From the IMG/VR virus record IMGVR_UViG_3300009177_000046, positions 1 through 57,861 of that record: a stretch of 57,861 nt of DNA; one strand, 5' to 3'. The translations under genes and the position numbers were made by a program. This stretch comes from a virus. This document shows positions 7,538-51,692 of the stretch, in pieces. Position 1 is the stretch's first letter, and each line of letters opens with the position of its first letter. The notes under the pieces were generated by a model. That model saw nothing but the letters and a program-made list of their open reading frames with translations. It was not told the DNA's origin and made no database searches.

Positions 7538-7540
7538 ACT
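7512..7540 (+). promoter_or_regulatory. possible promoter upstream of ParB-like gene
   Basis: GTGAAA at 7512-7517 and TAAACT at 7535-7540 are separated by 17 bases. They resemble a sigma-70-type -35/-10 pair (one mismatch from TTGAAA; weak -10). The stretch 7538-7579 is unusually AT-rich for this genome and precedes a gene that, unlike its neighbours, is not coupled to the one upstream. Tentative. Confidence 0.25.
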
Positions 7541-7566
7541 CACGAAACTCAGCACTTTCCACTTTC
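7515..7566 (+). repeat. short direct repeats before ParB-like gene
   Basis: AAACTC occurs at 7515-7520, 7536-7541 and 7545-7550. CACTTTC is tandemly repeated at 7553-7559 and 7560-7566. The repeats flank the possible -10 element and could be an operator or leader element, for example for autoregulation by the ParB-like product. Chance is not excluded. Confidence 0.3.
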
Positions 7567-7579
7567 GAAGGAGACGATC

Positions 7580-8362
7580 ATCACCACTTTCCCGCCTGAC
7601 CTCATCAAGGACGTCCCCCTGGCGGACCTCGTCATCGACCCGGACGCCCAGCGCGAGGTCGACTCCAAGCGTGCCCAGTACATGGCCGACAACTGGAACC
7701 CCAAGCTGTTGCAGGTGATCACCGTCGCCGTGGACCCGGTCGACGGCACCCTGTACCTCGTCGACGGTGGCCACCGTGTCACCGCAGCCCGGCTGCTGGG
7801 CATCACCTCACTGACGGCGGACGTGAAGTACGGCCTGAGCAAGGAGGAGCGCGCCGAGCTGTTCATCGAGCTGCAGTCCGAGCGCAAGCCGATCAACCCG
7901 CTGACCCTGTTCAACGTCCGCATCACCGCCGGCCACGTCCGCGAGACGGAGATCGAGCGCCTTCTGTTCGACCGTGGCATGAAGGTGGGTGGGTCGCCGT
8001 CCACCAACGTCGTGGCCTCCATCTCGGGCCTGACCAAGACCTATGACGATGGGGGTAAGGAGCTGGTCGGCAAGACGATCGACGTGCTGCGCGCGGCCTT
8101 CGGCACCCATGGCGGTGACGCTTGGCAGCCCGACATCCTGCGCGGCACCGCCATCGTGCTGTTCCGCAACGCGACCATCGACATCCAGCGCTTGGTGCGG
8201 ACCTTGCAGACGGATGCACCGCGCATGTGGCTGTCGTACGTCGCCACCCGCTCGCGTGGCTCCGGTGGTTCCGGCGGTCGTCCGATGCACATGGCGAAGC
8301 TGATCGTCGAGCGTTACAACAGCGGCCTCACGGCCAAGTCGAAGAAGCGCATCGCCCTGTAG
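7580..8362 (+). CDS. ParB/Srx-like nuclease-fold protein, probable AUC start
   Basis: A ParB/sulfiredoxin N-terminal domain: DPDAQR at residues 20-25 and the diagnostic GHR at 64-66 (LVDGGHRVTAARLLG). It resembles the phage ParB-like proteins grouped as DUF6551. Such domains bind or hydrolyse nucleotide and can nick DNA; the role in phages is unsettled. After TAA 7537 the frame has no ATG, GTG or TTG until codon 35. That later start would delete DPDAQR. AAGGAG at 7568-7573 sits 6 bases before ATC 7580, so I infer AUC initiation, giving 260 aa (ATC 7577 is the alternative). The C-terminal half is a helical domain ending in a Gly/Ser linker and a basic tail. A 178-base structured gap follows. 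Confidence 0.8.
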   Translation: MTTFPPDLIKDVPLADLVIDPDAQREVDSKRAQYMADNWNPKLLQVITVAVDPVDGTLYLVDGGHRVTAARLLGITSLTADVKYGLSKEERAELFIELQSERKPINPLTLFNVRITAGHVRETEIERLLFDRGMKVGGSPSTNVVASISGLTKTYDDGGKELVGKTIDVLRAAFGTHGGDAWQPDILRGTAIVLFRNATIDIQRLVRTLQTDAPRMWLSYVATRSRGSGGSGGRPMHMAKLIVERYNSGLTAKSKKRIAL

Positions 8363-8540: not shown

Positions 8541-9686
8541 ATGTTTGACGACATCGGCGCCCTTGAACTGGGCGCCATCTACGCAATGACTCGACACCGC
8601 GACGACGTACTGCGTGACGAGCGACTCGAGCAGATGCAGATGCAGCAGGAACAACGGCGGGTAGAGGCCGTCGCTACCGTCGAACCCGTGAGCACACCAT
8701 GGGGTGAGGGCTACCCGGAACCGACGAATGTCGAGATGGTGGGCGACTGGGGCGACTTCATCGGCCAGGACGCCTTGAAGCGCACCCTGATGGTCTACAT
8801 GACGAAGGCCCAGGAACTGGACGAGGCCCTCCCGCACGTCCTGCTGGCCACCGGTCAGCCCGGGGTCGGCAAGAGCACGGTGGCAAAACTGATCGCCAAG
8901 TCGATGGGCCGTCAACTGTACGAGGTGGTGCCACCGTTCACCGTCGAGACCTTGGCCGGGATCTTGGACGAGATGTGGCCGAAGAGCTTCCTGTTCATCG
9001 ATGAGATCCATCGGCTGGCGATGGGCCGATCCCGTAGTGCGGAGATGCTGCTGAAGGTGCTGGAGGAAGGCAAGCTCCCGCTGCCGGACGGCACGATGCT
9101 GAGCCTGCCCCCGATCACGGTGATCGGGGCCACGACCGAACCGGACCTGCTGCCGGAGCCGGTGCTGGACAGGTTCAAGATCAAGCCGGCGTTCACCCCG
9201 TACTCAATCGGTGAGTTGGGTCAGATCGCCATGCACACAGCCTACAAGCAGGGCTACGACGTGGGCGAGCGACTGACCAGCGACCTGGCCATCTCGATGG
9301 CATGCGCCTGCCGGGGGACGCCACGAATCCTGGGCGAGATGGTGATGGGCGCCGACGCCCTGTTCCACGTGTACGGTCGACCGCCGACGGACGCCGAACT
9401 GTTCGACTTCCTGCAACTCGAGCCGGACGGCCTGACCCGCCAGCACGTGGCGTACCTGGTGACGCTGTACCGGCACTTCGGTAAGCGCAATCCGATGGGC
9501 CGGGTGGAGTACATCGCCGGTGAGGGGGCGATGCAGGGACTGCTACGGGAGACGAAGCCGGGTGTGAACCGGCTGGAGCGCTACCTGCAGGAATGCGGGA
9601 TGTTGGAACGAACACCGAAGGGCCGCAGGCTCACCGACATGGGGGTTCTGCGTGTGAAGACACTGATAGATGAGGGGAAATCGTGA
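8541..9686 (+). CDS. ruvB-like: RuvB-like Holliday junction branch-migration ATPase
   Basis: AAA+ motor predicted to drive branch migration of Holliday junctions. Motifs: IGQ box at 74-76, Walker A GQPGVGKS at 105-112, Walker B LFIDEIHRL from 151, sensor 1 GATT at 196-199, arginine finger in LDRF at 211, then a RuvB-like lid and winged-helix region. The order and wording (LFIDEIHRL, VIGATT) match RuvB closely rather than clamp loaders. Length is 381 aa against about 340 for bacterial RuvB, owing to a charged N-terminal extension of about 55 residues. No RuvA or RuvC partner is visible in the window. ATG 8541 has GAAGGAGACCACCTG upstream. Confidence 0.88.
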   Translation: MFDDIGALELGAIYAMTRHRDDVLRDERLEQMQMQQEQRRVEAVATVEPVSTPWGEGYPEPTNVEMVGDWGDFIGQDALKRTLMVYMTKAQELDEALPHVLLATGQPGVGKSTVAKLIAKSMGRQLYEVVPPFTVETLAGILDEMWPKSFLFIDEIHRLAMGRSRSAEMLLKVLEEGKLPLPDGTMLSLPPITVIGATTEPDLLPEPVLDRFKIKPAFTPYSIGELGQIAMHTAYKQGYDVGERLTSDLAISMACACRGTPRILGEMVMGADALFHVYGRPPTDAELFDFLQLEPDGLTRQHVAYLVTLYRHFGKRNPMGRVEYIAGEGAMQGLLRETKPGVNRLERYLQECGMLERTPKGRRLTDMGVLRVKTLIDEGKS

Positions 9687-11512: not shown

Positions 11513-11713
11513 GTGCACGGCAAGCCAAGTCCCTACCGATTCGAACGTGACCGTGATGGTTCCGTGCGCCTGCGAATCCGCTTCACCAAGGAAGAAGCCG
11601 ACACTATCGAGGCAGCCGCCGACGGCGAACCACTCCTCACCTGGCTACATGAACTGATCCACGAATCCGCCGCAGAAGAAGCAGCAGCTCTGAAGGAGCA
11701 CAACAATGGCTAA
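11513..11713 (+). CDS. hypothetical protein, 66 aa
   Basis: GTG 11513 preceded by GGGAGGCGTC, a good ribosome binding site. Charged, probably beta-hairpin then helix (YRFERDRDGSVRLRIRFTKE, EADTIEAAADG, LHELIHES). The beta-then-helix layout might suit a small DNA-binding fold, but no family is recognised. TAGAAT at 11481-11486 upstream could be a -10 box, weakly. It overlaps the next gene by 8 bases. Confidence 0.6.
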   Translation: MHGKPSPYRFERDRDGSVRLRIRFTKEEADTIEAAADGEPLLTWLHELIHESAAEEAAALKEHNNG

Positions 11714-12275
11714 GCATACTGGGGTCTTCAACAACCTGGACCCATCACAATTCTATTTCGCCGGCACGGCAGTGATCGACGAAGAGTTCGAGTACTACGG
11801 CCCGGGGACGTTCGTTCAGTTCCTCCTCCTGAATAAGATCGCCCTGCGCGTCGCGTACGCCGCAGCTGAGGGTGACGCGAATCCGGTCATCGTCCTGGCG
11901 AACAAGACCCACGTCCGAGGCTATGTGGCCACCGACGACGAGACGTTGGAGGATTTCTGCGTCCGTCTCTCTCAGGAGTCCCGCAACATGAAGGCGACCC
12001 GACTGTTCTGGTGGCGCCGGGCGAAGGTGACCGCCTTCCCGAAGAACCTGCCGATCGCTGAGCAGATGATGGACGAGTCGATCGATGCCGGGGAGACTGA
12101 GTACGAACTGCATGATGGGATCGTCTGGTACGCCGAAGCCTCTGCCGCCGACGATGATGAAGGAGCTCCAGTCAGGGTGTCGGGAATCATGGATCTGGCC
12201 GGACCTGAGCGACTGATCGATCCGAAGATGCTGAGCCAGCAGCCGATGGATCTACTCGTCGGGATCCTGGAGTAA
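11706..12275 (+). CDS. hypothetical protein, 189 aa
   Basis: ATG 11706 with AAGGAGCACAAC upstream, overlapping the previous gene. Soluble alpha/beta protein rich in beta strands (FVQFLLLNKIALRVAYAAAE; HVRGYVATDDETL), acidic overall, without cysteine clusters or nucleotide-binding motifs. Function unknown. It directly precedes the recombinase-like/Lsr2 fusion. Confidence 0.7.
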   Translation: MAKHTGVFNNLDPSQFYFAGTAVIDEEFEYYGPGTFVQFLLLNKIALRVAYAAAEGDANPVIVLANKTHVRGYVATDDETLEDFCVRLSQESRNMKATRLFWWRRAKVTAFPKNLPIAEQMMDESIDAGETEYELHDGIVWYAEASAADDDEGAPVRVSGIMDLAGPERLIDPKMLSQQPMDLLVGILE

Positions 12276-12281: not shown

Positions 12282-13532
12282 ATGGGCGGCTGGGATCCCC
12301 TCGAGTCTCAGGACCAGTGGGATGTCGAACTGGTCCTGCTCGAAACCGAGATGGCCCAGAAGGTCCGCCGCAGCCGCGTGAACGTCTTCAACTCCTGGGC
12401 CCACCGCAACGGCATTCACGGCCCTAAGGAGATCACCCCGGAGGCCTGGCTGGAGTTCGCGACCTGGCTGGAGATCGACCAGGACTACGCACCGGCGTAC
12501 CGCAAGCACGTGATCATGGAGGTTCGGGAGTGGCTGGCCTGGGCGGCGGAGCGTGGATACTGCGATCCGATCGAACTAGGCCAGCCGATCCCCCAGCACA
12601 GCCTTGAAATGCTGTGCCGAGCACACCGTGCGAATACCTTCGACCACGTGGGTCCTTTCGAGTACCAGCAGCGTGAGATGATCCTCGGGCTTGTCTTCGG
12701 TGTAGGGATGAACCCCGACCGACTGCACGAACTATTGATCTCCGACTACGACTTCCGCCGGCACACCCTGCTCGGGGTGCCGATGGACCCACGGGCGGAG
12801 AAGCTCGTCCAGCGCTACCTGGGCCCCCGAATGCGCCGCCCAAGGGGGACCGATCATCTTCTGGCAGAAAGAAACGGAACGCAATTGCAGCCCACGACGG
12901 TACGAGTACGACTCAACGATTTGCTCCGCACGTTCGGCGGACTTCCCCCGGTGGACCGGAATCGCGTAATATTCAAGTGGATGCCAACACCTCATCGGGA
13001 CTTCGATCTGGTGCTTGACATTCTGTCCGGACGGCCGGTACTGCAGGCCCGAAAGCATGCATACGACGCCGGGCTGGTCATACGCGGGATACTGAATCTC
13101 GCGAAACAGAAAGCCGTAGCCCTGGATACGGACCACAATCCAGGAGAAGGGATCCGTATGGCAATCCAGATGAAGCAGGTTCACGTATGTGACCGATGTG
13201 GTGATGAGGGGTTTCCCATCACGATCGGTTGGCCTGAGGGGACGGCAACGATCGACCTGTGCCAGTTGCACCTGACCGAGCTGGTCGGAAATCCGATCGA
13301 GATCGAGGACGAGGCTCCCACGAACGGCGCGAAGCCGAAGGTCACCAACGGGAAGCCGGCGAAGCCGGCGAAGATCACGCAGAAGACGAAGACCCCGTCG
13401 CTTTCCACCGAAGCCCGCAAGTGGGCCCGGGAGAACGGGATCGAGGTGCCCAAGCGGGGGAAGGTTCCCAGCGACATCATCGTGCGATACCAGGCCATGG
13501 CCGACCGCTCGCTCGCCGCCGTCGGATTCTGA
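12282..13532 (+). CDS. fusion: degenerate tyrosine-recombinase-like region + zinc finger + Lsr2 C-terminal domain
   Basis: Three parts are visible in 416 aa. Residues about 10-95 are a helical SAM/core-binding-like domain. About 125-270 resembles a tyrosine recombinase catalytic core (VFGVGMNPDRLHELLISDYD around 138-157), but the position of the box I arginine is Asn and no clear HxxR...Y set remains, so it is probably inactive. C303/C306/C327/H330 form a zinc finger (CDRCG...DLCQLH). After a Lys/Pro-rich linker, 377-405 matches the Lsr2 C-terminal DNA-binding domain (WARENGIEVPKRGKVPSDII), with RGK in place of the usual RGR that enters AT-rich minor grooves. It is likely a DNA-bridging or silencing protein. 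It lies last in the plus operon, before a terminator. An internal ATG at 13158 with a ribosome binding site could give the Lsr2 part alone. Confidence 0.7.
   Translation: MGGWDPLESQDQWDVELVLLETEMAQKVRRSRVNVFNSWAHRNGIHGPKEITPEAWLEFATWLEIDQDYAPAYRKHVIMEVREWLAWAAERGYCDPIELGQPIPQHSLEMLCRAHRANTFDHVGPFEYQQREMILGLVFGVGMNPDRLHELLISDYDFRRHTLLGVPMDPRAEKLVQRYLGPRMRRPRGTDHLLAERNGTQLQPTTVRVRLNDLLRTFGGLPPVDRNRVIFKWMPTPHRDFDLVLDILSGRPVLQARKHAYDAGLVIRGILNLAKQKAVALDTDHNPGEGIRMAIQMKQVHVCDRCGDEGFPITIGWPEGTATIDLCQLHLTELVGNPIEIEDEAPTNGAKPKVTNGKPAKPAKITQKTKTPSLSTEARKWARENGIEVPKRGKVPSDIIVRYQAMADRSLAAVGF
13158..13532 (+). CDS. possible internally initiated Lsr2-like protein, 124 aa
   Basis: In-frame ATG 13158 is preceded by AGGAGAAGG (13142-13150). 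Translation from here gives a 124-aa protein with a zinc finger plus Lsr2 DNA-binding domain, close to the usual size of stand-alone Lsr2 (about 110 aa). Whether it is made in addition to the 416-aa product is an inference from the ribosome binding site and the domain boundary. Confidence 0.35.
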   Translation: MAIQMKQVHVCDRCGDEGFPITIGWPEGTATIDLCQLHLTELVGNPIEIEDEAPTNGAKPKVTNGKPAKPAKITQKTKTPSLSTEARKWARENGIEVPKRGKVPSDIIVRYQAMADRSLAAVGF

Positions 13533-33753: not shown

Positions 33754-36700
33754 TCACGGCACGGATCGAGGCGTTGTCGTCGTCGCCCGGGATGCCACCG
33801 CGCTCTGCCGCTTCAGTTCGGACACCACCTGGGCCACCAGGGCCTTGGCGATGGCCGCGGTGGGCACCTGATTGACGATGTCCACGTTCTGATTGACGAT
33901 CTGGGCGCCGTTGGCCATAACAGCGTCGCGAACCGACTGCATTGCGCTGACCAGCGCAGCGCTGTTGCCGGATCCGGACGTACCGACCGACGACATGCGG
34001 CGCACATCCAGGACCGACTGACCGATGGCCTCCCTGGCTGCGTCGGCACCGAGTGAGCGGCGCACCTCGTAGGCGGTGGGCATCTTGATCTCGCCGGGGA
34101 TGTTGAACCCGGACCCGGTGAGCTGATTGCGGATGTCGTCCTGCAGGCCCTTGATCTTGCGCATGATGTCCCGGCGCTGCGCCTCGGTCAGGTTGGTGGC
34201 CTTCAGCATCGTCTGCAGGGCCTTGACCGCCTCCGCGCCGGTGATGTTGCCCATCTCCTTGTTGAAGTCGATGGTGTCCAACTCGTACTGCACCTTTGTG
34301 TCCCGCAGTGCCGCCCGTGCGCCGACCAGGGACGCCCGCGCAGCAATCACCTCGGCCGAGTTCCTACCGCCGGACATCTTCTTCGCGGTGGTCAACTGCG
34401 CCTTGGCCAGCCGCACCCCGATCTCGGCGGACTTGATGATGTCCCCAGAGGCGGTGGCACGAGCCTGAGACAACTGGATGCGAGCCTCGACGACGCCCCG
34501 CTCCGCTCGGACGATCTGCCAGCCGGCCTGGATGCTCTGCTGTAGCGCGGACTGGTACTGGGTGGACGCGGTGCCGTAGATGGACGCGTCGCCCATGGCC
34601 TGCCCCGCTAGAGACTTTGCCATCCGTGCCTGCCGCAGCGCATCTCCTGGTGGGATGCGAGCCGCGGCGGTCTGCCGAGCAGCAGCAGCCTGTGCCATGT
34701 ACACGTCAGTGAGGGCGAGGTTGGCCTGGTTGAGCCGGACCTGGGCCGCGTTCTGGGCCTCCACCCCTACCGCATGGCCCAACTGAACCTGGGCGAGTTG
34801 GACTTCGATCTGCGCCAGTCCTGCCGTGTTGCGGGTGGAACTCTTCGCCAGGTTCAGGCCCAGGCTGTCCTGTGTGGTCAGTTGTTGGGCGGCTTGCTGA
34901 TCCAGCGCCTGCGCCTGCGCCCGTGCCTGAAGGGCTGCACTCTTATCTCCAGCCTTCTCGTATTCGGAAGCCTTATCCCGATATGCGGCGGCACCCTGGC
35001 CGAGGGCAGCAGCGGCGCCGGAGAAATCGCCTGTGAATGCGGCCAACTGTGCTGCAGCGTTGGCCTGGGTGCTGATGTAGCTGAGCAGCGCCTGAGAGGC
35101 CGACGCCGCGTTCTGCGACGCACCCCAGAAGGCGGCCTCGGCCGCTTCGATCTTCTCCTTGTCACCGCCAGCCTGTGCGGAAATAAGATTCTTCGCCGCC
35201 TCGTCCAGAAGATTCTTTGTTATGCCAGCCAGGGCATCCAGTTGGCTCTGCTTGCCACCCGACATGGTGGCCGCCCCCATCAATTTCTTCAGCTCTGGGC
35301 CTTCCAGGCCCGACTCTTCCGCCATTCCCCGCAGAGCATCTGCCACGTCCGTCGACTGGGTCGCGAAGACGGCGTCCATCGATCCCAGGTTCCCCGTCAG
35401 CTTCTGCAGCTCCTGGAGCATGTCCGAGGAGAGCAACTTGATTCCCTCGCGCTGCTCGATCAGCCCCCGGACCTGCTCATCCCACCAGTTCTCCATGGCA
35501 TTGAACTCAGCCTCGTAAGCAACCTTCTGCTCCGCGGACAGGTTCGGATCGTCTTTGATGCTCTGGCGCTTCGCATCGATATCTTTCTGGAACTTCTCGG
35601 ACCTCTTCTTTATTTCGTCGTTCGACAGGTCGGGAACGGTGTCGAAGAAGGTGACCATAGCTTCAGCGTTCTGATTTTTGAGATCAGCCCACATGCCCTC
35701 CAGTTCCTTCTTCCCCGCATCAGGGATGATGCCCATTCGTCTCTTGGGCTCGTTGCGAAGTAGATCGGGAATATTCAGAGGGTTACCACTGAGCGCCTTC
35801 CAGATCGTCGATAGGGACATGCCGGCCATCGCCATACTGCTTGGTTGGTTTATCCCCTTGAGTTGATCGAACGCCGGATTGTCTTCATACGGATTCCTCG
35901 CGGCAGACTCGTTACGGATTTGTTCGTCTGACTTACCGCGCCCCTCCAACGTCTTCTTGTAATGCGCCTCCAAGAAATCCACGGTTTCCTTGTGCTTCTG
36001 GCTGGATTCCATCACCGCCATGATCCCGAGCCCCACAGCCAATGCGGCTACCTGCAACATCCCCGCGCTGGCCCCCATGACGGTCATTGCTTGGCTGCCC
36101 TTGTTCAGTGCAGCAGCCATACGTGTGGCGTTGCGCTCCATGCGATCCAGGGACCGGACCGGACCCGACATCGCAGCAGCAAACTGACCAGAGACACCAC
36201 CGGGCGCTGCAGCGATTGCGGCAGCTCGAGCTGCCGCAGCCTGCGCTGCCCGCGTTTCCATGGCCTGCGCTGCCCGCGAAGTGATCGGCGTGGGAGGCGC
36301 CGCCCCCACGCTTGCCTGCCACGCCAGGAACTCGGCGGAGCGCGCAGCCGCCCGGACTGGAATGCCAAGTTGAGAAGCGATGACGCGCTGCTGCAACTTC
36401 TGCTGATATGCGCTCGGAATCATCACTGGTGCTGCTGCACCGGCTGCACCGGCTGCACCGGCTGCACCGGCTGCCGCACCTGCTGCACCAGCACCAGCAG
36501 CACCAGCAACCGCCGTCTCGATTCCCGCAAGACCGACCCGACCAAGCACAAACTTGTTCATCGTGCCCATGGCGGAGCCGAGCCCAATAAGCGCAGTACG
36601 GAGCAGTTTGATCCCCACGCTCATGCCGATGATCGTGGTGGTCAGGTGCAGGAATTTCTCAGCCAGTGGATGCCGGTCGAAGAAGTCGCCGATCACGGAC

Positions 36701-39700
36701 AGGCCGATTCCCACATCCTGCAGGGCCCTTGCGAACCCCTTCATGATCAGACCAACGGCATCGAGGATGCCAAGCCGGATCAACTGCTCGCCCAGGTTCT
36801 GCAGCCCGGTCTTCAACCTCGCGATCTGGTTGAGGAACTGCTCCGCGATTTGAGCAGCCCGCTTCTCCGCCTCACCATGTGCATTCGTCGACTTGGTGAT
36901 CGTGTTCAGCACCTTGTCGCCGTCCAACAACAGAGCCTGACCCGCTCTGGCCTGCCGCGTGCCGAACAGGACCGTGGCCAAGTAACTCTGCTCAGCCTTG
37001 TCCAGATCCTTGTAACCGCCGACCAATATCCTCAGTGCATCACCGAATTGCCGGGTAGCCAGCGCATCTGACATCTCCGGCGAGGGGAAGGCCCTGTTGA
37101 GTGCCGACATTCCACGGCCGCTCTGCATCGTCGCCAGGATCCGACCGAGTTGCTCACCGGCTGCCGCACCGGTGGCGTTGGTCATCTTCGCGATCTGAGC
37201 CACATACACCGCGGCGTCTTCGAGGGGGATGTTCATCGCCACGGCCTGTCCGGCGAAAGCGCCCAGGCCTTCAGAGGTGACCTCGATATTGGTGCCAAGG
37301 TTGTTCTGGATGACCGTGAGCACGTCAGCGACGTGCGTGAGTGCATCGCTGGTGTACAGGCCGAACGCTGAAGCGGTGGACGCCAACGCGCCCATCCCCT
37401 CCTTCGCGCTCAGGGCACCGTTGGAGATCATCTGCAGCTGTGTGACGACCCGAGTGGCCGTATTTACCTCAGCGACGCTCTCGAACACACCAGCGAGACC
37501 GGCCGCCGTCTCGTATACGTCCGCCAGCGCGACACCGTAGTCGGTGGACGTCTTCAACAACTCGGTCCGCAGGCCGCCGGCAGAACGCCCAGTTGCTTCC
37601 AACGCGGATGACACCCGGATGAAGGTGGACTCGGCCTGCATCGATTGCGAGATGATTTCCTGGATCTGATTGGTGATCCCGAATATGGCCCCAGCGGCGA
37701 AGTTGCGAACGACGAACAGGCCGGCCGAGCTGATGACCCGACCCCAGAAGCCGTGCGTTCCGAACAGGGCGCGTCCCACATCGCCCTGCACACCCTCGGC
37801 CAAGGAGGCTGCGAAGTAGCCGCCGACCTGCCGCCCCGACTTGCTCGCCTCGGCCTTGTTGGAGTCCACCAGGGTCCGGCTGAGATTGGTGATCTGTTGA
37901 CCCGGCAGGTCGATTCCTGTGGCAGCGGAGAGGTCCGCGAACTTGCTCTTCACCGACCCCTTCGTGATCTTCTCCCCGGGGTGCTGCGCCCGCAGCTCCT
38001 GATCGACCCTCGCGAACAGGGCGTGAAGGTCTCTGATGACCTGATCCGTGGGGACGATCGACTTCCCCATCTCCAGGCCGATCCGCCTGGCCTCCGTGAT
38101 GGTCTCCGACGACAATCCACCGAGATTGCCGGCCGCGAATGCTCTCCTCGAATCAGCCCTCTGCTTGGCTGTGGTCGCATCCGCCACCCGCCTGGCGTTC
38201 TCCCTCAGCGCCGCGGCATGGGCGGTTTCCACTGGCCGCGCTGCTTGCTCCAGCGCCTTCTGGCTTTCGACCTGCCGCCGGATGTCCTTCTCGAGGGTCC
38301 TGGCCTCCTGTGAGGTCAGCTTCATTTCGTCGGCGAACAGCCGGGCGGCGTTCTTGGCCTGGACCATCCCCGAGGCGACAGCCTCGGTGCTGACCGCGAG
38401 CGCCTGGTCGGTGGACCTCAGCTTGATCGCTTCACGCGCCTGATCGGTCAGGCCCTGCTTGACCTTGTCCAACCTCTGGATGAGGTCTTCCCTGACCGTT
38501 GTGGTGAGTGCGGGCTGACGAACCGGCACACTCTTCTTCGCCGCATCGTCCATCCGGGCCAGGTCCCCCCGGAAGTCGGGCCCACCCATGGCAGCGGCGG
38601 CGGTGGCGGGCGGCTTCGGCGGCTTCCCGCCCCCGGCTGCACCGAGGGCGAGTTCCTGCTCCTTGGCCTTGGCCAGGGCCTCCATCGCAGCGGTGTAGCG
38701 CGCCGTGGCGGCCGCCAGTCGCTTCTGTCGGGCCTCCTCAGCCTGCGGGGTGGACGCCCTGGTGAAGGACTCGCCCAGCATCGGCGAAACCGTCGACTCT
38801 GGCTTGCCGGCCTTGATCCGCTCCTGGTTCTGCAGGACGGCCGCCATGCCACGATCGCGCAGCCGGTCCAGGACACCCCTTCCTGACCGGGCCGCATCCT
38901 GCTCCCTCGTGGCTGCAGCCAGTTCCTGCTCAGCGGCTCCGACGTCCGCCTTGGCCTTGTTCCGCGCCCGGGTCTGCGCCGCCTTCTGTGCCGGTGTCAG
39001 TTCTGCTGTGACCACAGCCTCCGGGGCCGCAGCCCCGGCCTTGGCGGGAGCGCCACCAGTAGTACGGATGCCCTGGCGAAGAAGGGCGTACACCTTGTTG
39101 ACAGCCGCGGTGACCCGATCGATGGCAACCACATCATCGTCGGAGTCCAACTTCCGGCCGAGCGCGTTGAGGGCTGCGTTCCCGGTCGCACCCCCTCTTG
39201 GTGCGGCAGCCGCTGGAGCCGCCGTCCCGGCTGCTGCGGGGGTCGCTGCGGCCCGGGGAGCCCGGACCCTGGGTGCGGGGGCCACCGACAGGTCGATGCC
39301 GCGTTCTGCGGCGATCGCCTGACCCAACTGGACCTGCTTGATGGCGTTCAGACGGGAGTTCAACAACTTGCGCTCAGCGGCCTGCTCCGTAGTCAGCTTC
39401 ACTTCTCTGCTGGGAGTCGGTATCGCCTTGAGTGAGGCCTCGATGGACGCTCGCTCACCGGCCAGGTCTGTAATCCCCAGTTTGGTGACCCGGTCCTGCG
39501 CCGCCTTGACGCTGCGCTTCAGCGCATCGACTTCCAGTCCCTGCAACCGTGCCCGTTCCCGCTCTTCACCCTTGGGGAGAGCAGCCTCCCGCTCCTTGGC
39601 CAGGGTCTGCTTCTCTGTTGCAGCGGTGAGCCGCTTCTGGGCGGCCGACAGCCGTGCCGCGTCCTTCGCCTCTTCGGCCGCAGTGACTTCCTTGGTGGCC

Positions 39701-42700
39701 GCACGAACTTCCCTGTTGGCTGCCGTGACGTCCAGCCGAGCCTGCTTCGCAACCGACGGTGCCTGAGCCTCCCTGGTGGCCTTCGTGGCCTGGTCCGAGG
39801 CCTTCGCCTTGTCCCTCGTGGCAGCGGCCGACTTCTCCGTCTCGGCGGCGACCTTCTCCTCCGCCTTCTGCGTCTCGGCCAGCGCCTCCGTGTACTTCTT
39901 CTGCGCGTCCTTTGCCTCATTCAGCGTGCCAATGGTCGTCGATCCACGGAGGGTGCGGCTCTGCTGCCGTTGCGCATCCAACGCCAGCCGCTCATCCCTG
40001 AGCTGCTGCTGCGCCTGTGCGTACTCGGGCGTCTGGCGGAGTTGCTCGTGGTGCTCCTTGCTGCCCATCTCGATCTTGGGGACAGGCGCATCACTCGGCG
40101 GAAACTGCGAGAGGTAGGCCTTCAGGTCCTTCTCGGCCTGATCAACCAACTGCCTGAGCCGTGGCAACTCCGACTTTGCCGCCTGCTGCCTTTCCACCGT
40201 CTGCATCCGACGCTCCAGAGCGTCGGCGTAGTTCTTGAGGGCAGCGCTAACCCGCTTCTCGCCGGCCTCTGTAGTACCGGGCGCAGCCGCCCGAGCGGTC
40301 GCCAGATCCGCTCTGGCCTTGTTTGCGACCGTGGTCGCCTTCGACACGTCCTCGCCGCCGTGCCCGTGCAGCACATCCCTTTTCTCGCCAGCGATCGCCT
40401 CGACTTGCCTCAACCTGCCCTGAGCCAGCTGACCCCGGAACTGAAGCCGTTCAACCTCCAGGGCACTCGGGCGCGGACGCGCTGGCCCAGGCTGCGTCTG
40501 TGGACGACGGTCCTTGGCGCCCTCCATCTTGGCCAACTCGGTGTAGAACTTCGCCTCATCCAGGGTGGAGAAGTAGTCGTCGAGATATTTCCGCATCCTG
40601 GCTTCGCGCCGCGCATACTCTTGCTCGGACCACTTCAGGTCAGCCATCAAGCGGGCCATGACAGACCGCTTCTGCTGCAAGCCACGCTCAGCGGAACGCC
40701 TAGTCCGCTTGTTCTTGTTCTCGGGCATCGCGGCGATACGCGCCTCGTCGGCGTCGATCTTGCGCTGCATCTCGTCGACCGCAAGCTGCCGGGCGGTCAC
40801 GTTCTTGAACTGCGCCCTCTCCATCTCGGAAACGCCACGCAGCGCCTCCGGCACGCCACCACCGACACCGCCGAGCCGCTGGAGCTTGGCCCGAGACGCC
40901 CGCGCCTGCCTGAGGAACTCAGTGGGCTGCTCGGTCGGCGTGACCGTGGCGACCGACCGGGCCCGGATGCGCTCCATCAGCGCTTCCCGACGCCGCTCAT
41001 AGTCGGCTCGAGGATCAGCCGCCCGGGCAGCGGCCTGCTGCTCCACCCCCTGCTGGGAGATCAGGACCCCCGGCTCCGTCCTCGGCTGACGCTTGGCCCG
41101 GTTCAGGTCGTCGCGGATCGCCGACACGACCAGTTCCCCGGTCTGACGCAACCGGTCGAACTCCCGATATAACTCGTCGACGCCCTGGAGGCTGGCAGCC
41201 AGCAACGTCGGGTTGATCTTCTTGTCGAAGATCACGCCGTACTCGCGCAGCCGATCGGACATGCGCTTCACCGCATCGGCACCGGTGACCGCTCTCTGCG
41301 TCGTCCCTGCCAGTGGAGCGGTCAGCGCCTCCCGACCGACCTTGTCCAGATCCTGGATCGAGCGCGGGTTCTCCAGACCCAAAGAACGGCGCCTCTTGAG
41401 TTCCTCATTGGCCCGATCCCGCAGAACCTTCTCCTGCTGCTTGACGGCCTCCCGACGCTCCTCCGACATGGCCGGGGCCGCAAGCAGCATCCGGTGACCA
41501 CCGACGGTCTCCTGCGTGGTGGGCGACAGGAACCCCAATTCCCCGGGACGACGGATCCCGATGCCCCCGGCGGTGCCGAACAGCTTGTCGTACTGGGCGA
41601 AGATCTCGGATTCCAGGTGCCGCATCTTCACCATCTGCTGCATCTGCTCCGAGGCAGCCAGCGGACCCTGATCCTTGACGATCTGCCGCGCGTTCAGCCC
41701 GGTCACATTCCGGAGGCTCTTGACCAGAGCCTCCTCGTCGGCATGCAGGGTCTGGCCGCCGGCTATCTTCTGGGCGACCCCGGTGAACTTGGTCAACGCC
41801 TCGACCAACTTCTCCGGCAGTTTCGGCTCCTTGCCGGTATCTATGAAGTTGGCCAGGTTCTGGGTGGCCTTGTTCAGTGGCGCGGTGAGTTGCCGCTCGG
41901 CCTTGCTCACATCTTTCAGGCTCGCCGTTGTGCCGTAGCGGGCCGCCTGCGCTGCTGCGTTCCGCTCGGCAGCAGCCTTGATCAGCGGACCGAAGTCGTC
42001 CCGCAACTCCAACCGCCCCGTACTGCCGAGCCGCAACCCGGGCATCGCCGAGGACATCGGCTGACGCTCTGCACCCTGGTAGCCCAGCGGCTGCAGGAAC
42101 AGGCTCTGGATGCCGCCCATCAGGGCCTGTCGCCGCTCCCTACCTTCTTGCACGGCCTCATGCCGGGCGGCGAACTCCGCCCGCCCCTGGGCCCGAGCCT
42201 GAAGTACCGGGCGCATCTCCTCGCTGGTGAAGTCCTCGTTGACCCCTGCGACCCGATACGGCGCGGCCATCTGCCGCATCCCCTCGGCTTCTGCTTCAAG
42301 GCGGGTGCGCTTCTTCGACCCGACCTCGTGCTGTGCCGCCTTGACCTGCAGTCGCTCCGCCTCGAGCATCAACTCGGCGTACTTGTCGAGGAAGTTGTAG
42401 ACGGATCGCATCTTGGCCAGCGCCCGATTCGCGGCGAGCGCATTCTCATCGTCACCGAGGACCCGCTGGTACGGGTTGACCGCCGGATCGTTCAGATCGC
42501 GACTGCCGGTCGCCATGTGCTGCTTGCCGACGGTGAGGGCACGCTTCACCGTGTCGTCCAGGAACTTACCCACCGTGCCGGCAGCCTGGGCAACGAAGCG
42601 CTGATCCTGCCGGGCCAGACCCATCTGCTCCTGGGTCTCGGCCGCCTTCGTCCGACGAGCGATGGCCTCGGCGTAACGCTTGTTCGCCGCTTCAAGTTGG

Positions 42701-44619
42701 GCTGCCGCCGGCCCGGTCGCCGTATCGACGCTCTTCTGTACCTGGGCAAGATGGTTCCGGGCCTGCTCAAGCTCGACGCCGAGTTCCTTGGTCCGGAACT
42801 GACGCTCCCGCTGCAGGACTTCGGCAAGCTGTTTCTCCGCCTGAGCCAGGGCCGCCAGTTCCTTGTCGTCCGGCTTCCGCTTGATGGCCTTGACCGCGTT
42901 CAATGCCTGGAGGGCCGACTCCGCCTCCTTGCCGGCCGCCTCGAACTCGTCGCGAGCCTTCGTGGCTCGTGCGGCATGTTCCGGGCGTTCCAACTGGAGA
43001 GCCGACACGCCCCGACGAGAAGAACCGCCCCGACGGGCGTTGCGATCCAGAACGTCGAAGGCAGCCTTCTGCTCCGCCGTCATCTCCCCGGTGCCCAGCG
43101 CCTTGACCAGATCGGCCATCGGCGGGGAGAGGATGGTGGTGGCCTCCTTCTTGTATGCGGTGACCCGCTTGGCCAGCTCCTTCTGCGCCGCGTCCATGCC
43201 GGCGTCCGTCGGCAAGCCCTTGGCGTTCACCAACCGCCCCAGGCCTTCGACGATGGCCATCAGGTTCTCTTTGGTGTTCCCCCCGCCCTTGGTGACCGCC
43301 TCGTCCTTGAACTGCCCGGTCGCAGAATCGAAGACCTGCTTCCACTTCTTCTGCAGGTCGGCGGACAGGGTCGCGCCCGGGTCCACGCCGGCCTTCTGGA
43401 AGGACGTGATTATGGCGCGCAAGGTTCCCCACGGATCCTCGGCGGCCCCCTTCGATCCCTTCCGCTGGAGGAGGGACGCCCTGAAGGGGGAGTCGATGCC
43501 GGCGCCTCTCTCCGTGGCGATGTCCATCGCACTGGAGATGTTGATGAAGTCGATCGAGGGTGTGGGCGTCTGCAACGCCGACCGCCGGTAGGCCGCCCGT
43601 GCCTCCCCGCGCGCAGCCTGACGTTCCGCCACCGGCGGCCTCTCCGCCTTCGTCAGCCTCGCCTGCAGCTTCTCCAGATCGGACTGGATCCCGGCCAGGG
43701 ACTCCACGTCACCACCGGGCTGCATGGCCCTCGCGGCCAGAGCGGTCAAAGCGGCGATGTCGGCCCGGAGCTTGGCGATCTTGGTGCTGACCCCAGTCGC
43801 CCCAACGATCTGCGGAACGGTCGGCGCAGTGGTGGCGGTGGGCGCAGCGGCGACATGAGCAGCGGCAGCAGGGGCTGCGCCGGGCGCGGCGGGAACGTGA
43901 GTGGGGGCGGCACCAGGGGCACCACCGGGAGGACGGGTCAGCAACGCATCCCGCAGCGCGACGATGGCCATCTTCACTTCGTCAACGGACCTGCGGACGT
44001 TCTTCTGGACCTTCGTCCCCTCACCGATGGCGCTCTTCAGCCCGTCAAGGGCAGCTTCGCTGACGTGCGGGATGTTCTGCGGCGCGGCAGGCGTCGGGGT
44101 GGTGGCTGCAGGGGGCGGTGCCTGCGTGAGGCTGGCTCGAGCCGCTGCTCGCTCCTCCTGCTCCTGCTGCCGCCGCCGTGCAGCGCCGGTCTTCGCCGGG
44201 GGCGGCGGCGGCTCTGGGAGGAACCGCTTCGTGTTCGGGTCCGTGGTTCGGGCATGCGCCGCCACGGACTTCCGGGCCGCCTCCGCGACCTTATCGGGCA
44301 GGTTGTTCAGGAAGCCCTCGAACCTACCTAAGGAGGTGGTGAACCTGTCGATGCTGGCATCGATGCGACGTGCATCGTCTTCATGCCCACCGCCCCCACC
44401 TCCACCTCCGGCGGTGTGGTGCTGAACATCGACCTTGATGCCGGCCTTCTCCAAGGCCTGGAGCTGTGCAGTCAGACCCTGGGCGAAGCCGTGCATCGAC
44501 TTCATTCGGGTGTCGAAACCCTTGATCACCGCGTTGGCGGCGCCCAGATCCTGCTTGATCTTCTCGAGGAACTTATCCGAGTTGGAATCGAAGGAGACGT
44601 AGAAGTCGGCTCCAGCCAC
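33754..44619 (-). CDS. tape measure protein, 3621 aa
   Basis: Sets tail length and occupies the tube lumen. About 2,200 N-terminal residues are helical, Ala/Glu/Arg/Lys-rich coiled-coil material. At about 2300-2750 lies a TP901-type tape-measure core (FAAGAIFGITNQIQEIISQS; TSTDYGVALADVYETAAGLA). Two hydrophobic stretches follow near 2660-2700 and 2850-2875, and the C-terminal part is again helical. Taking the usual 1.5 Angstrom per residue, the tail would be about 540 nm. GTG 44619 has GGGAGG upstream, directly after the frameshifted chaperone. Its opposite strand has long spurious frames. Confidence 0.95.
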   Translation of the reverse strand: MAGADFYVSFDSNSDKFLEKIKQDLGAANAVIKGFDTRMKSMHGFAQGLTAQLQALEKAGIKVDVQHHTAGGGGGGGGHEDDARRIDASIDRFTTSLGRFEGFLNNLPDKVAEAARKSVAAHARTTDPNTKRFLPEPPPPPAKTGAARRRQQEQEERAAARASLTQAPPPAATTPTPAAPQNIPHVSEAALDGLKSAIGEGTKVQKNVRRSVDEVKMAIVALRDALLTRPPGGAPGAAPTHVPAAPGAAPAAAAHVAAAPTATTAPTVPQIVGATGVSTKIAKLRADIAALTALAARAMQPGGDVESLAGIQSDLEKLQARLTKAERPPVAERQAARGEARAAYRRSALQTPTPSIDFINISSAMDIATERGAGIDSPFRASLLQRKGSKGAAEDPWGTLRAIITSFQKAGVDPGATLSADLQKKWKQVFDSATGQFKDEAVTKGGGNTKENLMAIVEGLGRLVNAKGLPTDAGMDAAQKELAKRVTAYKKEATTILSPPMADLVKALGTGEMTAEQKAAFDVLDRNARRGGSSRRGVSALQLERPEHAARATKARDEFEAAGKEAESALQALNAVKAIKRKPDDKELAALAQAEKQLAEVLQRERQFRTKELGVELEQARNHLAQVQKSVDTATGPAAAQLEAANKRYAEAIARRTKAAETQEQMGLARQDQRFVAQAAGTVGKFLDDTVKRALTVGKQHMATGSRDLNDPAVNPYQRVLGDDENALAANRALAKMRSVYNFLDKYAELMLEAERLQVKAAQHEVGSKKRTRLEAEAEGMRQMAAPYRVAGVNEDFTSEEMRPVLQARAQGRAEFAARHEAVQEGRERRQALMGGIQSLFLQPLGYQGAERQPMSSAMPGLRLGSTGRLELRDDFGPLIKAAAERNAAAQAARYGTTASLKDVSKAERQLTAPLNKATQNLANFIDTGKEPKLPEKLVEALTKFTGVAQKIAGGQTLHADEEALVKSLRNVTGLNARQIVKDQGPLAASEQMQQMVKMRHLESEIFAQYDKLFGTAGGIGIRRPGELGFLSPTTQETVGGHRMLLAAPAMSEERREAVKQQEKVLRDRANEELKRRRSLGLENPRSIQDLDKVGREALTAPLAGTTQRAVTGADAVKRMSDRLREYGVIFDKKINPTLLAASLQGVDELYREFDRLRQTGELVVSAIRDDLNRAKRQPRTEPGVLISQQGVEQQAAARAADPRADYERRREALMERIRARSVATVTPTEQPTEFLRQARASRAKLQRLGGVGGGVPEALRGVSEMERAQFKNVTARQLAVDEMQRKIDADEARIAAMPENKNKRTRRSAERGLQQKRSVMARLMADLKWSEQEYARREARMRKYLDDYFSTLDEAKFYTELAKMEGAKDRRPQTQPGPARPRPSALEVERLQFRGQLAQGRLRQVEAIAGEKRDVLHGHGGEDVSKATTVANKARADLATARAAAPGTTEAGEKRVSAALKNYADALERRMQTVERQQAAKSELPRLRQLVDQAEKDLKAYLSQFPPSDAPVPKIEMGSKEHHEQLRQTPEYAQAQQQLRDERLALDAQRQQSRTLRGSTTIGTLNEAKDAQKKYTEALAETQKAEEKVAAETEKSAAATRDKAKASDQATKATREAQAPSVAKQARLDVTAANREVRAATKEVTAAEEAKDAARLSAAQKRLTAATEKQTLAKEREAALPKGEERERARLQGLEVDALKRSVKAAQDRVTKLGITDLAGERASIEASLKAIPTPSREVKLTTEQAAERKLLNSRLNAIKQVQLGQAIAAERGIDLSVAPAPRVRAPRAAATPAAAGTAAPAAAAPRGGATGNAALNALGRKLDSDDDVVAIDRVTAAVNKVYALLRQGIRTTGGAPAKAGAAAPEAVVTAELTPAQKAAQTRARNKAKADVGAAEQELAAATREQDAARSGRGVLDRLRDRGMAAVLQNQERIKAGKPESTVSPMLGESFTRASTPQAEEARQKRLAAATARYTAAMEALAKAKEQELALGAAGGGKPPKPPATAAAAMGGPDFRGDLARMDDAAKKSVPVRQPALTTTVREDLIQRLDKVKQGLTDQAREAIKLRSTDQALAVSTEAVASGMVQAKNAARLFADEMKLTSQEARTLEKDIRRQVESQKALEQAARPVETAHAAALRENARRVADATTAKQRADSRRAFAAGNLGGLSSETITEARRIGLEMGKSIVPTDQVIRDLHALFARVDQELRAQHPGEKITKGSVKSKFADLSAATGIDLPGQQITNLSRTLVDSNKAEASKSGRQVGGYFAASLAEGVQGDVGRALFGTHGFWGRVISSAGLFVVRNFAAGAIFGITNQIQEIISQSMQAESTFIRVSSALEATGRSAGGLRTELLKTSTDYGVALADVYETAAGLAGVFESVAEVNTATRVVTQLQMISNGALSAKEGMGALASTASAFGLYTSDALTHVADVLTVIQNNLGTNIEVTSEGLGAFAGQAVAMNIPLEDAAVYVAQIAKMTNATGAAAGEQLGRILATMQSGRGMSALNRAFPSPEMSDALATRQFGDALRILVGGYKDLDKAEQSYLATVLFGTRQARAGQALLLDGDKVLNTITKSTNAHGEAEKRAAQIAEQFLNQIARLKTGLQNLGEQLIRLGILDAVGLIMKGFARALQDVGIGLSVIGDFFDRHPLAEKFLHLTTTIIGMSVGIKLLRTALIGLGSAMGTMNKFVLGRVGLAGIETAVAGAAGAGAAGAAAGAAGAAGAAGAAAPVMIPSAYQQKLQQRVIASQLGIPVRAAARSAEFLAWQASVGAAPPTPITSRAAQAMETRAAQAAAARAAAIAAAPGGVSGQFAAAMSGPVRSLDRMERNATRMAAALNKGSQAMTVMGASAGMLQVAALAVGLGIMAVMESSQKHKETVDFLEAHYKKTLEGRGKSDEQIRNESAARNPYEDNPAFDQLKGINQPSSMAMAGMSLSTIWKALSGNPLNIPDLLRNEPKRRMGIIPDAGKKELEGMWADLKNQNAEAMVTFFDTVPDLSNDEIKKRSEKFQKDIDAKRQSIKDDPNLSAEQKVAYEAEFNAMENWWDEQVRGLIEQREGIKLLSSDMLQELQKLTGNLGSMDAVFATQSTDVADALRGMAEESGLEGPELKKLMGAATMSGGKQSQLDALAGITKNLLDEAAKNLISAQAGGDKEKIEAAEAAFWGASQNAASASQALLSYISTQANAAAQLAAFTGDFSGAAAALGQGAAAYRDKASEYEKAGDKSAALQARAQAQALDQQAAQQLTTQDSLGLNLAKSSTRNTAGLAQIEVQLAQVQLGHAVGVEAQNAAQVRLNQANLALTDVYMAQAAAARQTAAARIPPGDALRQARMAKSLAGQAMGDASIYGTASTQYQSALQQSIQAGWQIVRAERGVVEARIQLSQARATASGDIIKSAEIGVRLAKAQLTTAKKMSGGRNSAEVIAARASLVGARAALRDTKVQYELDTIDFNKEMGNITGAEAVKALQTMLKATNLTEAQRRDIMRKIKGLQDDIRNQLTGSGFNIPGEIKMPTAYEVRRSLGADAAREAIGQSVLDVRRMSSVGTSGSGNSAALVSAMQSVRDAVMANGAQIVNQNVDIVNQVPTAAIAKALVAQVVSELKRQSAVASRATTTTPRSVP
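36433..36500 (-). repeat. short tandem repeat in tape measure gene
   Basis: The 9-base unit ACCGGCTGC is repeated about five times, then degenerates into GCACCA/GCAGCACC units. It encodes the Ala/Gly run GAAGAAGAAGAA in the C-terminal third of the tape measure. In-frame slippage here would change length by three residues per unit. Confidence 0.7.
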
Positions 44620-47446: not shown

Positions 47447-48298
47447 TCACTTCCTTCTGGGGCGGATGGCCCCGACGGAAGCCTTGCTTGCCGCCAGCAC
47501 CTGTTCTTGGTACTCGCGGAAACCTGCTGCGCCGGAGATGCGGACCATGTGCGTGCCCTGGATCTCACGACGGATCTGGATACGAGACGGTCGCACGTCC
47601 ACATCCAGCTCACTCAACCTGTGCACAGCGTCCTTGCCCAGCCGGCTCGACGACGGAGCGAAGTACTTACCTCCCGGCGAGACGCCGAACCCGAGGCCGA
47701 ACTTCAGCACACGCCCCTTCTGAGAGGGGATCCGGATCTGCTGCTCGCCCAGCCGGTCATTCCGGGGACGTCCCGCCTTCCCGGTGCCGGGCTGTCCGCG
47801 CCGTTGCATCGCGTTCTGCTTGGTGCCGAGTTCGACGACGCGCCAGTGCGGGATCTGCTTGAGCCCGGCGGCACCGATTGCGACGGCCGCCTGATTCGTT
47901 CCGACCTTGCCGGCGCCCCAGACGAGGTTCTTCGCGATCGGCTGGTTGGGCCGTCCCCTGCGTGGGCTGGAGGTACGGGGCCTCTTGATCTTCCGCGCAT
48001 TCACAGTGCTTTCCAAGGTGGCGTTCGCCTTGATGACTGCTGCTCTACGCGCGCCCCTCTCAGCACTCTCAATCGCCGTCTTGATCTTGGTGAAGTCGCC
48101 GTCCAGGTCGATGGTGCTGGTCACCGTGACCCACGTCGGCTGCCTCGGTGCCGACCTCAACTCGGCCTTTATGACTGCGCCGGCCCTGGCTGCAGCGAAG
48201 TCGGCATCGCGCTTGGCTCGAGCGGCGGCAGCCCTACGGGCCTTCTCCGCCATTGCGTCGAGCTGGCGATCGACTTCCTGCTCCTCCTCGATGCGCAT
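47447..48298 (-). CDS. head-tail junction protein, basic, 283 aa
   Basis: The N-terminal half is a charged helix (DRQLDAMAEKARRAAAARAK). The middle is basic and Pro/Gly-rich (RTSSPRRGRPNQPIAK), and the C-terminal domain contains VVELGTKQNAMQRRGQPGTG and GVSPGGKYFAPSSS. The W-x-VVELGTK pattern is like HK97 gp10-type proteins near tail completion. ATG 48298 directly abuts the preceding stop. Specific role uncertain. Confidence 0.6.
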   Translation of the reverse strand: MRIEEEQEVDRQLDAMAEKARRAAAARAKRDADFAAARAGAVIKAELRSAPRQPTWVTVTSTIDLDGDFTKIKTAIESAERGARRAAVIKANATLESTVNARKIKRPRTSSPRRGRPNQPIAKNLVWGAGKVGTNQAAVAIGAAGLKQIPHWRVVELGTKQNAMQRRGQPGTGKAGRPRNDRLGEQQIRIPSQKGRVLKFGLGFGVSPGGKYFAPSSSRLGKDAVHRLSELDVDVRPSRIQIRREIQGTHMVRISGAAGFREYQEQVLAASKASVGAIRPRRK

Positions 48299-48556
48299 CT
48301 ACCGGCCCAACTTTCGGTCGATGCGGTCCAGGACCACCAGCAGCTCCTCATTGCGCACGGTGTTGGAATCCTCCGCCTTCAACAGGTCCAACACCGAGTC
48401 GTGGTAGGAGTTGAGCGCATCGATGACGGAACGACGCACCTGTGTCCGCTCCTCCTCGTCAAGCCTGGTCCAGACATCCCGCTCCAGGCCGCCCATGACA
48501 GTACCGAGGGCGCGATCACGGCGGTTCTTCAGGAACTCCTTCACGGGAACGCTCAT
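48299..48556 (-). CDS. small helical protein, 85 aa
   Basis: Highly charged, almost fully helical (RRDRALGTVMGGLERDVWTR; LDLLKAEDSNTVRNEELLVV), suggesting a coiled coil. No family. It is coupled closely with the next gene of the head-tail region. The 83 bases upstream (48557-48639) hold no gene I can support. Confidence 0.6.
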   Translation of the reverse strand: MSVPVKEFLKNRRDRALGTVMGGLERDVWTRLDEEERTQVRRSVIDALNSYHDSVLDLLKAEDSNTVRNEELLVVLDRIDRKLGR

Positions 48557-48639
48557 GACGCCGCCACCCGGCGCATTTCGATTCCCAGGCTCAGCACACT
48601 CATACGTCGGCCCGACGGGCGTCCAGTTGAAAGCAGGCC

Positions 48640-49302
48640 CTACTGATCGTCGTCATCACGCTTGTGTCGCCGCTCACCTTCGGCACGCAGACCCAGGTAT
48701 GCACCAAGCGCACCGATGGCCCCACCGAACAGCACCGACAGCAGGTTCAGCGCGTTCGTTCCCAGCGAATGAACCACTTCGCCCTCGAGCAGGGTCTTCA
48801 CCACATAGAGGAGCGGCCCAAGGGACATCAGTAGCAGCATCCCGCCGAGGGTCATCGCCAGCCACCAGCCCACGTTGTTCTCCAGCGCAGGATCGGGCGG
48901 CCGTTCCACCCGACGCACCAGGTAGGCGGCGGTCGCCGCCACCAGCGCCGACCCGACGGTGAGCATCAGTTGGGTGGCCGTCTCGGACAGCAGCCCACCG
49001 CCACCGAACGCACCGAGGACCTGGGTGCCCACCAACGTCAACCAAGCAACCGCCGTGCACCGCACCAGCACCCGTGCCGCTCGGTGCCGGGGGCTGAGCG
49101 CATCCGTATCCACCGGCGGGGGCGGGAGTTCCGGAAGGGGCGGTACTGGTGGGAGGGGCGGCAGTGGTGGTAGCGGCTCAGGTTCCGGCAGCGGCGGCAG
49201 CGGATCGGGGATCAGCTCGAGTTCTGGCTCAGACTCTGGCAGCGGCTCGGACTCCCGTTCGGATTCGAAGCCGGGCACGGGGCTCGTGTCGTCGTCATCC
49301 AC
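48640..49302 (-). CDS. four-span membrane protein with Pro/Glu-rich N-terminus, 220 aa
   Basis: Residues 1-64 are acidic then strongly proline-rich (PLPPLPEPEPLPPLPPLPP). Four hydrophobic spans follow, at about 78-98, 108-130, 146-168 and 183-206, and a charged tail (RRHKRDDDDQ). An integral membrane protein amid head-tail connector genes is unexpected. It could be a second lysis protein (holin or antiholin-like) or an envelope-associated factor. GTG 49302 start. Confidence 0.65.
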   Translation of the reverse strand: MDDDDTSPVPGFESERESEPLPESEPELELIPDPLPPLPEPEPLPPLPPLPPVPPLPELPPPPVDTDALSPRHRAARVLVRCTAVAWLTLVGTQVLGAFGGGGLLSETATQLMLTVGSALVAATAAYLVRRVERPPDPALENNVGWWLAMTLGGMLLLMSLGPLLYVVKTLLEGEVVHSLGTNALNLLSVLFGGAIGALGAYLGLRAEGERRHKRDDDDQ

Positions 49303-49310
49303 GACGCCCC

Positions 49311-49886
49311 CTAGACGAGTGTGTCGACTAGTTCGAGTTCGGCGAAGTACGTCGTCCGCTCGGCCTGGTTCGCAGTATCCAGGTCACGCGCGAATCGGAA
49401 CGCCTCCACCTCCATGTACCCAACGACATCGTCGGACTCCCCCAGGTAGTCGTACAGCGCGATTGCCTGACCGTTGACCAGTCGGCCCGCGTAGCGATCA
49501 CCGAGGTCTGAGAACAACGCCTGGGCGGTCGCATCGTTGTTGGCGTAGAACACCAGACCGATCTGGTAGGGCTGCGACACCAGGGTGGAACCCAACTCCA
49601 TCTCCTCCGGATCAGCCGGCCGCGGCGCGTCTACCGCGAGCGTGTTCATCGCCGGAGGACCACTGGTGGGATCGGGGTAGTAGTTGATCACCTTCACCGG
49701 CAGGTTCCTGACGAACGCATAGACCTCCCCGGCGTCGACGGTGACCACCTCGAACTGGCTGTTGGTCGGGTTGTTCACCGGACGGGTCGTCGTCCCCGGA
49801 ATCCACCGGCAGGCGATGAGCGTGTTGAACAGGTCCTCCATGATCGACTCGTGGACCATGCGCACCCGGTGCCGAACGTAAACCAT
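49311..49886 (-). CDS. probable tail terminator protein, 191 aa
   Basis: ATG 49886 in an ATGA overlap. Compact alpha/beta protein starting HESIMEDLFNTLIACRWIPG, with YQIGLVFYANNDATAQALFS and YFAELELVDTLV at the end. The style (short helix, then strands; YDYL...VEAFRFARD) fits tail terminator/minor capsid proteins of the gpU/gp17 fold in this genome position. Position-based inference. Confidence 0.55.
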   Translation of the reverse strand: MVYVRHRVRMVHESIMEDLFNTLIACRWIPGTTTRPVNNPTNSQFEVVTVDAGEVYAFVRNLPVKVINYYPDPTSGPPAMNTLAVDAPRPADPEEMELGSTLVSQPYQIGLVFYANNDATAQALFSDLGDRYAGRLVNGQAIALYDYLGESDDVVGYMEVEAFRFARDLDTANQAERTTYFAELELVDTLV

Positions 49887-50832: not shown

Positions 50833-50866
50833 ACTCTGATGTCGGAATCTACGGGCAGCAGATGAC

Positions 50867-51588: not shown

Positions 51589-51692
51589 CTCTGACTGCCT
51601 CCTCGATGAATGATGGTCGATCTTCGCACTGTTTCCAGAGAATCGGATAGAGGCGCCCTGATCGGCGAGTCACGAAATAATGCCAGTACACG

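Follow-up and report, generated by a model that had tools for sequence, protein, structure and literature searches.

Organization of the locus

The window analyzed is the complete stretch of 57,861 nt held in the viral record IMGVR_UViG_3300009177_000046. As the preliminary description had it, one uninterrupted frame runs from 12282 to 13532 on the plus strand and specifies a protein of 416 aa (P0001), in which a recombinase part, a linker and an Lsr2-like part follow each other (Table 1). The ATG of the frame lies 6 nt past the stop codon of the upstream gene, to which its start is coupled. No stop codon separates the recombinase part from Lsr2, and translation from 12282 therefore yields a fusion.

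Table 1. Features of the fusion locus and of its upstream neighbourhood, in window positions
Feature	Position	Strand	Basis
RuvB-like ATPase, neighbourhood marker	8541–9686	+	relatives near recombinase in G013 and G014
Gene upstream of the fusion, neighbourhood marker, outside the protein	11706–12275	+	relatives near recombinase in G013 and G014
Complete 416-aa ORF, composed of dead recombinase part, linker and Lsr2-like part	12282–13532	+	open frame
Core-binding (SAM-like, helical) domain, residues 4–95, border approximate	12291–12566	+	hhalign; AlphaFold2 pLDDT ~90; PDB 3nrw
Recombinase catalytic domain, first part, residues 104–219; homology ends here	12591–12938	+	hhalign; AlphaFold2
Asn144 at the box I Arg position	12711–12713	+	alignments with recombinases
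Deletion site of the beta-hairpin with the catalytic Lys, residues 164–167	12771–12782	+	alignments
Residues 220–292, without recombinase similarity, low-confidence fold, atypical codon use	12939–13157	+	shuffles; AlphaFold2; codon use
AT-rich dip, spans the internal start	12961–13200	.	54.6% G+C vs 63.9% in the window
AGGAGAAGG, Shine-Dalgarno-like, for the internal start	13142–13150	+	-9.6 kcal/mol, best in the ORF
Internal ORF, 124-aa Lsr2-like protein	13158–13532	+	Met293 at the Met1 position of stand-alone phage Lsr2 proteins
Probable metal site CxxC...CxxH (C303, C306, C327, H330) in the Lsr2-like N-terminal region	13188–13271	+	sequence; alignment position; phrog_4061 pattern
Lsr2 DNA-binding domain PF23359, RGK at 13455–13463	13404–13496	+	Pfam; AlphaFold2 pLDDT ~90

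In dinucleotide shuffles, the frame stays open by chance over residues 1–219 in a fraction of 0.002 (0.2%), over 12282–13157 in 0.00025 (0.025%), and over residues 220–292 in 8.6%. The first ~300 nt have phage-like codon use, whereas that of about 12820–13060 is poor. Because the frame is rarely open by chance and the codons at the 5' end are phage-like, the data favour the view that residues 1–219 are maintained as protein; the stretch 220–292 is a joining piece of uncertain status.

Megablast of the first 25 kb of the window against 50,697 phage records gave no match. The capsid-like gene of the window led to 49 related viral contigs, one of which is identical at 100% over that gene. The proteins of a 12-kb contig (L004, IMGVR_UViG_3300025941_000968) are 99–100% identical to those of window 47447–57846; the contig stops short of the fusion region. 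Since it carries another dataset number, the phage of the window may recur.

Elsewhere in the window, a DUF6551/ParB-like nuclease-type protein is encoded at 7538–8362 (+). Cluster A phages devoid of an integrase use parABS, and by analogy a link of this ParB-like protein to maintenance is possible. A single 3621-aa ORF, found at 33754–44619 (-), is probably a very long tail (tape-measure) protein, and a 60-aa CsbD-like stress protein (PF05532, 2e-14) is encoded between virion genes at 55757–55939 (-).

The recombinase part

Compared by profiles and pairwise alignments, residues 4–219 are homologous to XerC/D-type tyrosine recombinases. Alignment by hhalign with a profile of 31 integrases covered residues 26–218 (97.6%, E 4e-12). 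Full-length, catalytically intact recombinases occur in two large related phages, G013 and G014 (PF00589 4e-27 and 1e-27, respectively); they match P0001 at E 5e-9 (G013) and 1e-10 (G014). Identity to the nearest relatives is ~26% over residues 1–219. In the shuffle test, the control stretch 131–215 gave P 0.0005. With regard to membership in PF00589, the core-binding domain and the N-terminal part of the catalytic domain are both present in residues 4–219. The Pfam search of the 416-aa protein found no recombinase domain match, and PHROGs gave a weak integrase hint only (E 0.008).

The neighbourhood is also common to the three phages. In G013 and G014, relatives of the RuvB-like protein (RuvB_N 2e-26, RuvB_C 5e-7; labelled clamp loader in PHROGs) and of the gene preceding the fusion are located upstream of the recombinase, at a distance of no more than about 6 kb. 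Because homology and neighbourhood agree, the recombinase part is most likely the recombinase of the phage's own lineage rather than a chance similarity. No other integrase of the same family was found in the window, and a scan for syntenic loci by RuvB returned, at high identity, G014 alone. Directly downstream of the recombinase, G013 and G014 encode a conserved Cys-rich protein (L054:665-1282 (-), L053:368-1060 (-)), free of Pfam matches, at the position taken in the window by the fused Lsr2.

AlphaFold2, run with the integrase alignment, gave pLDDT values mostly of ~90 for residues 4–229, <50 for 231–310, and ~90 for 374–410. The leading Foldseek matches listed from the PDB were all tyrosine recombinases, and the isolated core-binding domain 3nrw was matched at TMt 0.80 and rmsd 1.0; whole-chain TM-scores were low because the model is unfolded in part. 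Having been built on an integrase alignment, the recombinase fold is a consistency check and not an independent proof. Single-sequence AlphaFold2 reached a mean pLDDT of 34.5, and served for helix positions only. A recombinase-like region had been proposed to extend to residue ~290. Alignments bear this out for residues 4–219 and the predicted structure for 4–229; residues 220–292 score at shuffle level, and the model is unfolded from 231 to 310.

Loss of the catalytic residues

The recombinase family keeps R172, K196, H263, R266, H289 and Y298 (as numbered in the G014 protein). In P0001 the box I Arg is replaced by Asn, as anticipated, and a deletion has moreover removed the hairpin with the catalytic Lys. 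The HxxR, H/W and Tyr nucleophile motifs of the C-terminal lobe are not recognizable, in agreement with the preliminary description; similarity stops at residue ~219, and residues 216–292 compare with the catalytic C-terminus at shuffle level (P 0.3–0.9; profile score P 0.35). With Asn144 in box I, the Lys hairpin lost and no similarity past 219, P0001 cannot, judged from its sequence, be an ordinary tyrosine recombinase.

A degenerate C-terminal lobe, of which PTPHRDF or KHAYDAGLVIRG would be relics, was considered and rejected, as profile scores equal those of shuffles (P 0.35). A hidden frameshift was likewise discarded: the other forward frames of 12900–13200 have neither HxxR nor GH...Y motifs, and contain stops. 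The alternative that the fusion carries a divergent recombinase that is still active is hardly credible: recombinase homology is real, and PTPH at 235–238 falls on the HxxR His in one alignment, but the box I Arg, the Lys hairpin and a Tyr nucleophile motif are missing and the C-terminal half scores like shuffles.

The Lsr2-like part and its internal start

The Lsr2 DNA-binding domain PF23359 is recognized by Pfam at 40.6 bits (cut-off 26.9). The RGR AT-hook-like motif is replaced by RGK at residues 392–394, as had been noticed; a Cellulosimicrobium plasmid likewise encodes an annotated Lsr2 family protein with RGK. The N-terminal dimerization domain PF11774 has no Pfam match, yet in alignment the corresponding segment falls on that region of stand-alone Lsr2. 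The Ku-like phrog_4873 matches residues 362–405 of the 416-aa protein.

Met293-Ala294 falls on the Met1-Ala2 or Met1-Ser2 of stand-alone phage Lsr2 proteins, one of which begins with Met-Arg. The CDRC...DLCQLH stretch, formerly viewed as a separate zinc finger, aligns with the 'VDD...IDL' stretch in the N-terminal region of ordinary Lsr2, and so lies inside it. CxxC...CxxH is a probable metal site built into this region, metal binding being suggested by the residue pattern. Since Met293 is at the native N-terminus and CDRC...DLCQLH within the N-terminal region, residues 293–416 are, by alignment, one whole Lsr2-like protein, atypical in its N-terminal region.

The in-frame ATG at 13158 (Met293) is preceded by AGGAGAAGG, as reported earlier, and would give an Lsr2 of normal size. 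Pairing with the tail of 16S rRNA is the strongest of all possible starts of the ORF (-9.6 kcal/mol vs -5.9 for the first start), a value reached by just 3.6% of the in-frame internal ATGs of this phage. The predicted internal start is more than a chance occurrence. Since Met293 occupies the native N-terminus of stand-alone Lsr2, 13158 is argued to be the old start of an lsr2 gene; in the simplest history, part of 12939–13157 would be the former upstream region of that gene. The AT-rich dip is a local GC minimum, and ranks among the lowest 0.85% when G+C is taken over 240-nt windows. Sharma et al. 2021 (PMC8612146) described drops in GC ahead of lsr2 genes of phages, and suggested autoregulation. 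No sigma-70-type promoter was found near the internal start.

Distribution

In this analysis the fusion is represented by a single contig. A second recombinase-Lsr2 fusion was sought in viral contigs, phage records, plasmids and recombinase-bearing relatives, and none was found; the homologues keeping both parts that the preliminary description had called for did not emerge. Patterns drawn from P0001 or its N-terminal half (viral contigs), and A1 and the Lsr2 part (genome contigs), retrieved no fused relative. Scan A3 used a motif so short that even the known relatives were not confirmed by it. Of 47 recombinase ORFs gathered from viral contigs, not one is joined to an Lsr2-like frame or has one within 1.5 kb. 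Among relatives, in a few and perhaps incomplete contigs, no Lsr2 domain was detected in those bearing a recombinase (G013, G014, L152/G045), and no recombinase in those bearing Lsr2 (G003, G004). Matches to a Rhodococcus plasmid over residues 151–405 were rejected as a fused homologue, being ordinary Lsr2 with a spurious upstream extension. No recombinase-Lsr2 fusion was found in the open-licence papers searched.

One viral contig, G001 (IMGVR_UViG_2974622993_000001; L002, L055, L057), encodes two clear Lsr2 proteins and gives a third, weak Lsr2 match. In G004, an Lsr2-domain ORF (L146:1492-2016 (-)) is antisense to a virion gene that the window's family conserves.

Proposed origin and possible function of the fusion

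The reading put forward, tentatively and at a little short of an even chance, is that a recombinase that lost catalysis was joined in frame to an lsr2-like gene, and that both a 416-aa fusion and a free 124-aa Lsr2 are made. It is consistent with the homology of residues 4–219, the neighbourhood common with intact recombinases and the predicted fold, with the loss of the catalytic set, and with an internal Shine-Dalgarno sequence which is placed at the native Lsr2 N-terminus. The Ku-Lsr2 proteins described below offer a precedent. Against it stand the lack of a fused homologue in any collection searched and of any close relative, and the atypical codon use of residues 220–292, whose frame may be open by chance. 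The AlphaFold2 model rests on the integrase alignment, and a catalytic domain reduced to one half is a putative DNA binder.

From the computed homology, catalytic loss, borders, start signal and GC dip, we infer two products and roles in DNA targeting, silencing and autoregulation; the co-oligomerization with host Lsr2 put forward in the preliminary description is likewise conjectural. A phage tyrosine recombinase would have lost the box I Arg, the Lys hairpin and a recognizable HxxR/H/Tyr lobe; the remnant would have been joined across an AT-rich stretch to an entire lsr2-like gene, and the start codon and ribosome-binding site of that gene would survive at 13158. In the 416-aa fusion, the core-binding domain and the remaining catalytic half-domain would only bind or locate DNA, and the Lsr2 part would bind AT-rich DNA. 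The free 124-aa Lsr2 would be able to bind that DNA too, and either the fusion or host Lsr2 may be modulated by it. The two proteins would likely act in the control of phage gene expression, or in maintenance, once integration was lost, perhaps with autoregulation through the AT-rich dip. A more specific proposal, that the dead recombinase serves to address an Lsr2 silencer to DNA and that a nested free Lsr2 is translated off the same mRNA, which would make a two-isoform, site-targeted nucleoid protein in a phage, is rather unlikely.

The main rival holds that a decaying recombinase is accidentally in frame with a live gene, that only the 124-aa Lsr2 matters, and that 12939–13157 is its old upstream control region. 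The loss of the catalytic half, the dip in codon use and GC over about 12820–13200, the strong Shine-Dalgarno sequence at the native Lsr2 start and the absence of fused relatives all fit such a relic. Decay is less easily reconciled with residues 1–219, which are so diverged from their nearest relatives and still in an open frame, as with the phage-like 5' codons, the start coupled to the upstream gene and the confidently predicted recombinase fold. A relic is on balance somewhat unlikely.

The 416-aa protein might also be the sole product, the internal ATG being an unused leftover. The single long frame and the coupled start are in keeping with this; the ribosome-binding site at 13158 exceeds that of the first start and of most internal ATGs, and its location exactly at the Lsr2 N-terminus makes disuse improbable. 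An assembly chimera or a sequencing error joining two unrelated genes is very improbable: the junction is covered by one contig only, but the frame is open throughout, the genes ahead of it agree with those around the intact recombinase, and a GC dip of this sort is what a natural lsr2 upstream region would show.

What steers silencers of the Lsr2/H-NS type to particular sites, apart from AT content, is an active question, and little is known of the reuse of dead integrases by phages. If the preferred reading of a fusion plus a free Lsr2 is true, recombinase DNA-binding modules, a complete Lsr2 and a nested start would allow targeted silencing to be tested with a single gene. If the recombinase part is only a relic, the locus shows how a fusion may originate, with an integrase devoid of its catalytic lobe running into an lsr2 gene.

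Comparison with known systems

The closest precedent, by analogy, for a fusion of this kind is provided by the Ku-Lsr2 proteins of the cluster J mycobacteriophages Omega and Corndog (PMC8612146), the only Lsr2 fusion of a phage that the searched literature yielded; the dead recombinase would be a second partner. In both, a C-terminal Lsr2 DNA-binding domain is attached in one frame to a DNA-acting phage protein. The partner is Ku in the former, a dead recombinase in the 416-aa ORF; Ku-Lsr2 has the last ~30 residues of Lsr2 only, whereas the 416-aa ORF has a whole Lsr2-like protein with its own internal start.

The 13158 product resembles the stand-alone phage Lsr2-like proteins of PHROG 1223 and CgpS-type silencers in DNA-binding domain, size and start position, and differs in having CxxC...CxxH in the N-terminal region, no PF11774 match, and a fused recombinase part. 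In PHROGs it matches the small phage family phrog_4061 (E 0.001–0.0012), whose members, such as the protein of Streptomyces phage Nanodon (L199:1498-1875), show a similar CD..G...DLCxxH pattern; the Nanodon protein has neither the Pfam Lsr2 DNA-binding domain nor a recombinase part, both found in the 416-aa ORF. With XerC/D-type recombinases (those of G013/G014, XerA 5hxy, lambda Int 1p7d), P0001 has in common the core-binding domain and the first catalytic half; it differs from them in the loss of the catalytic Arg and Lys hairpin, and in a C-terminal catalytic lobe that is absent or unrecognizable.
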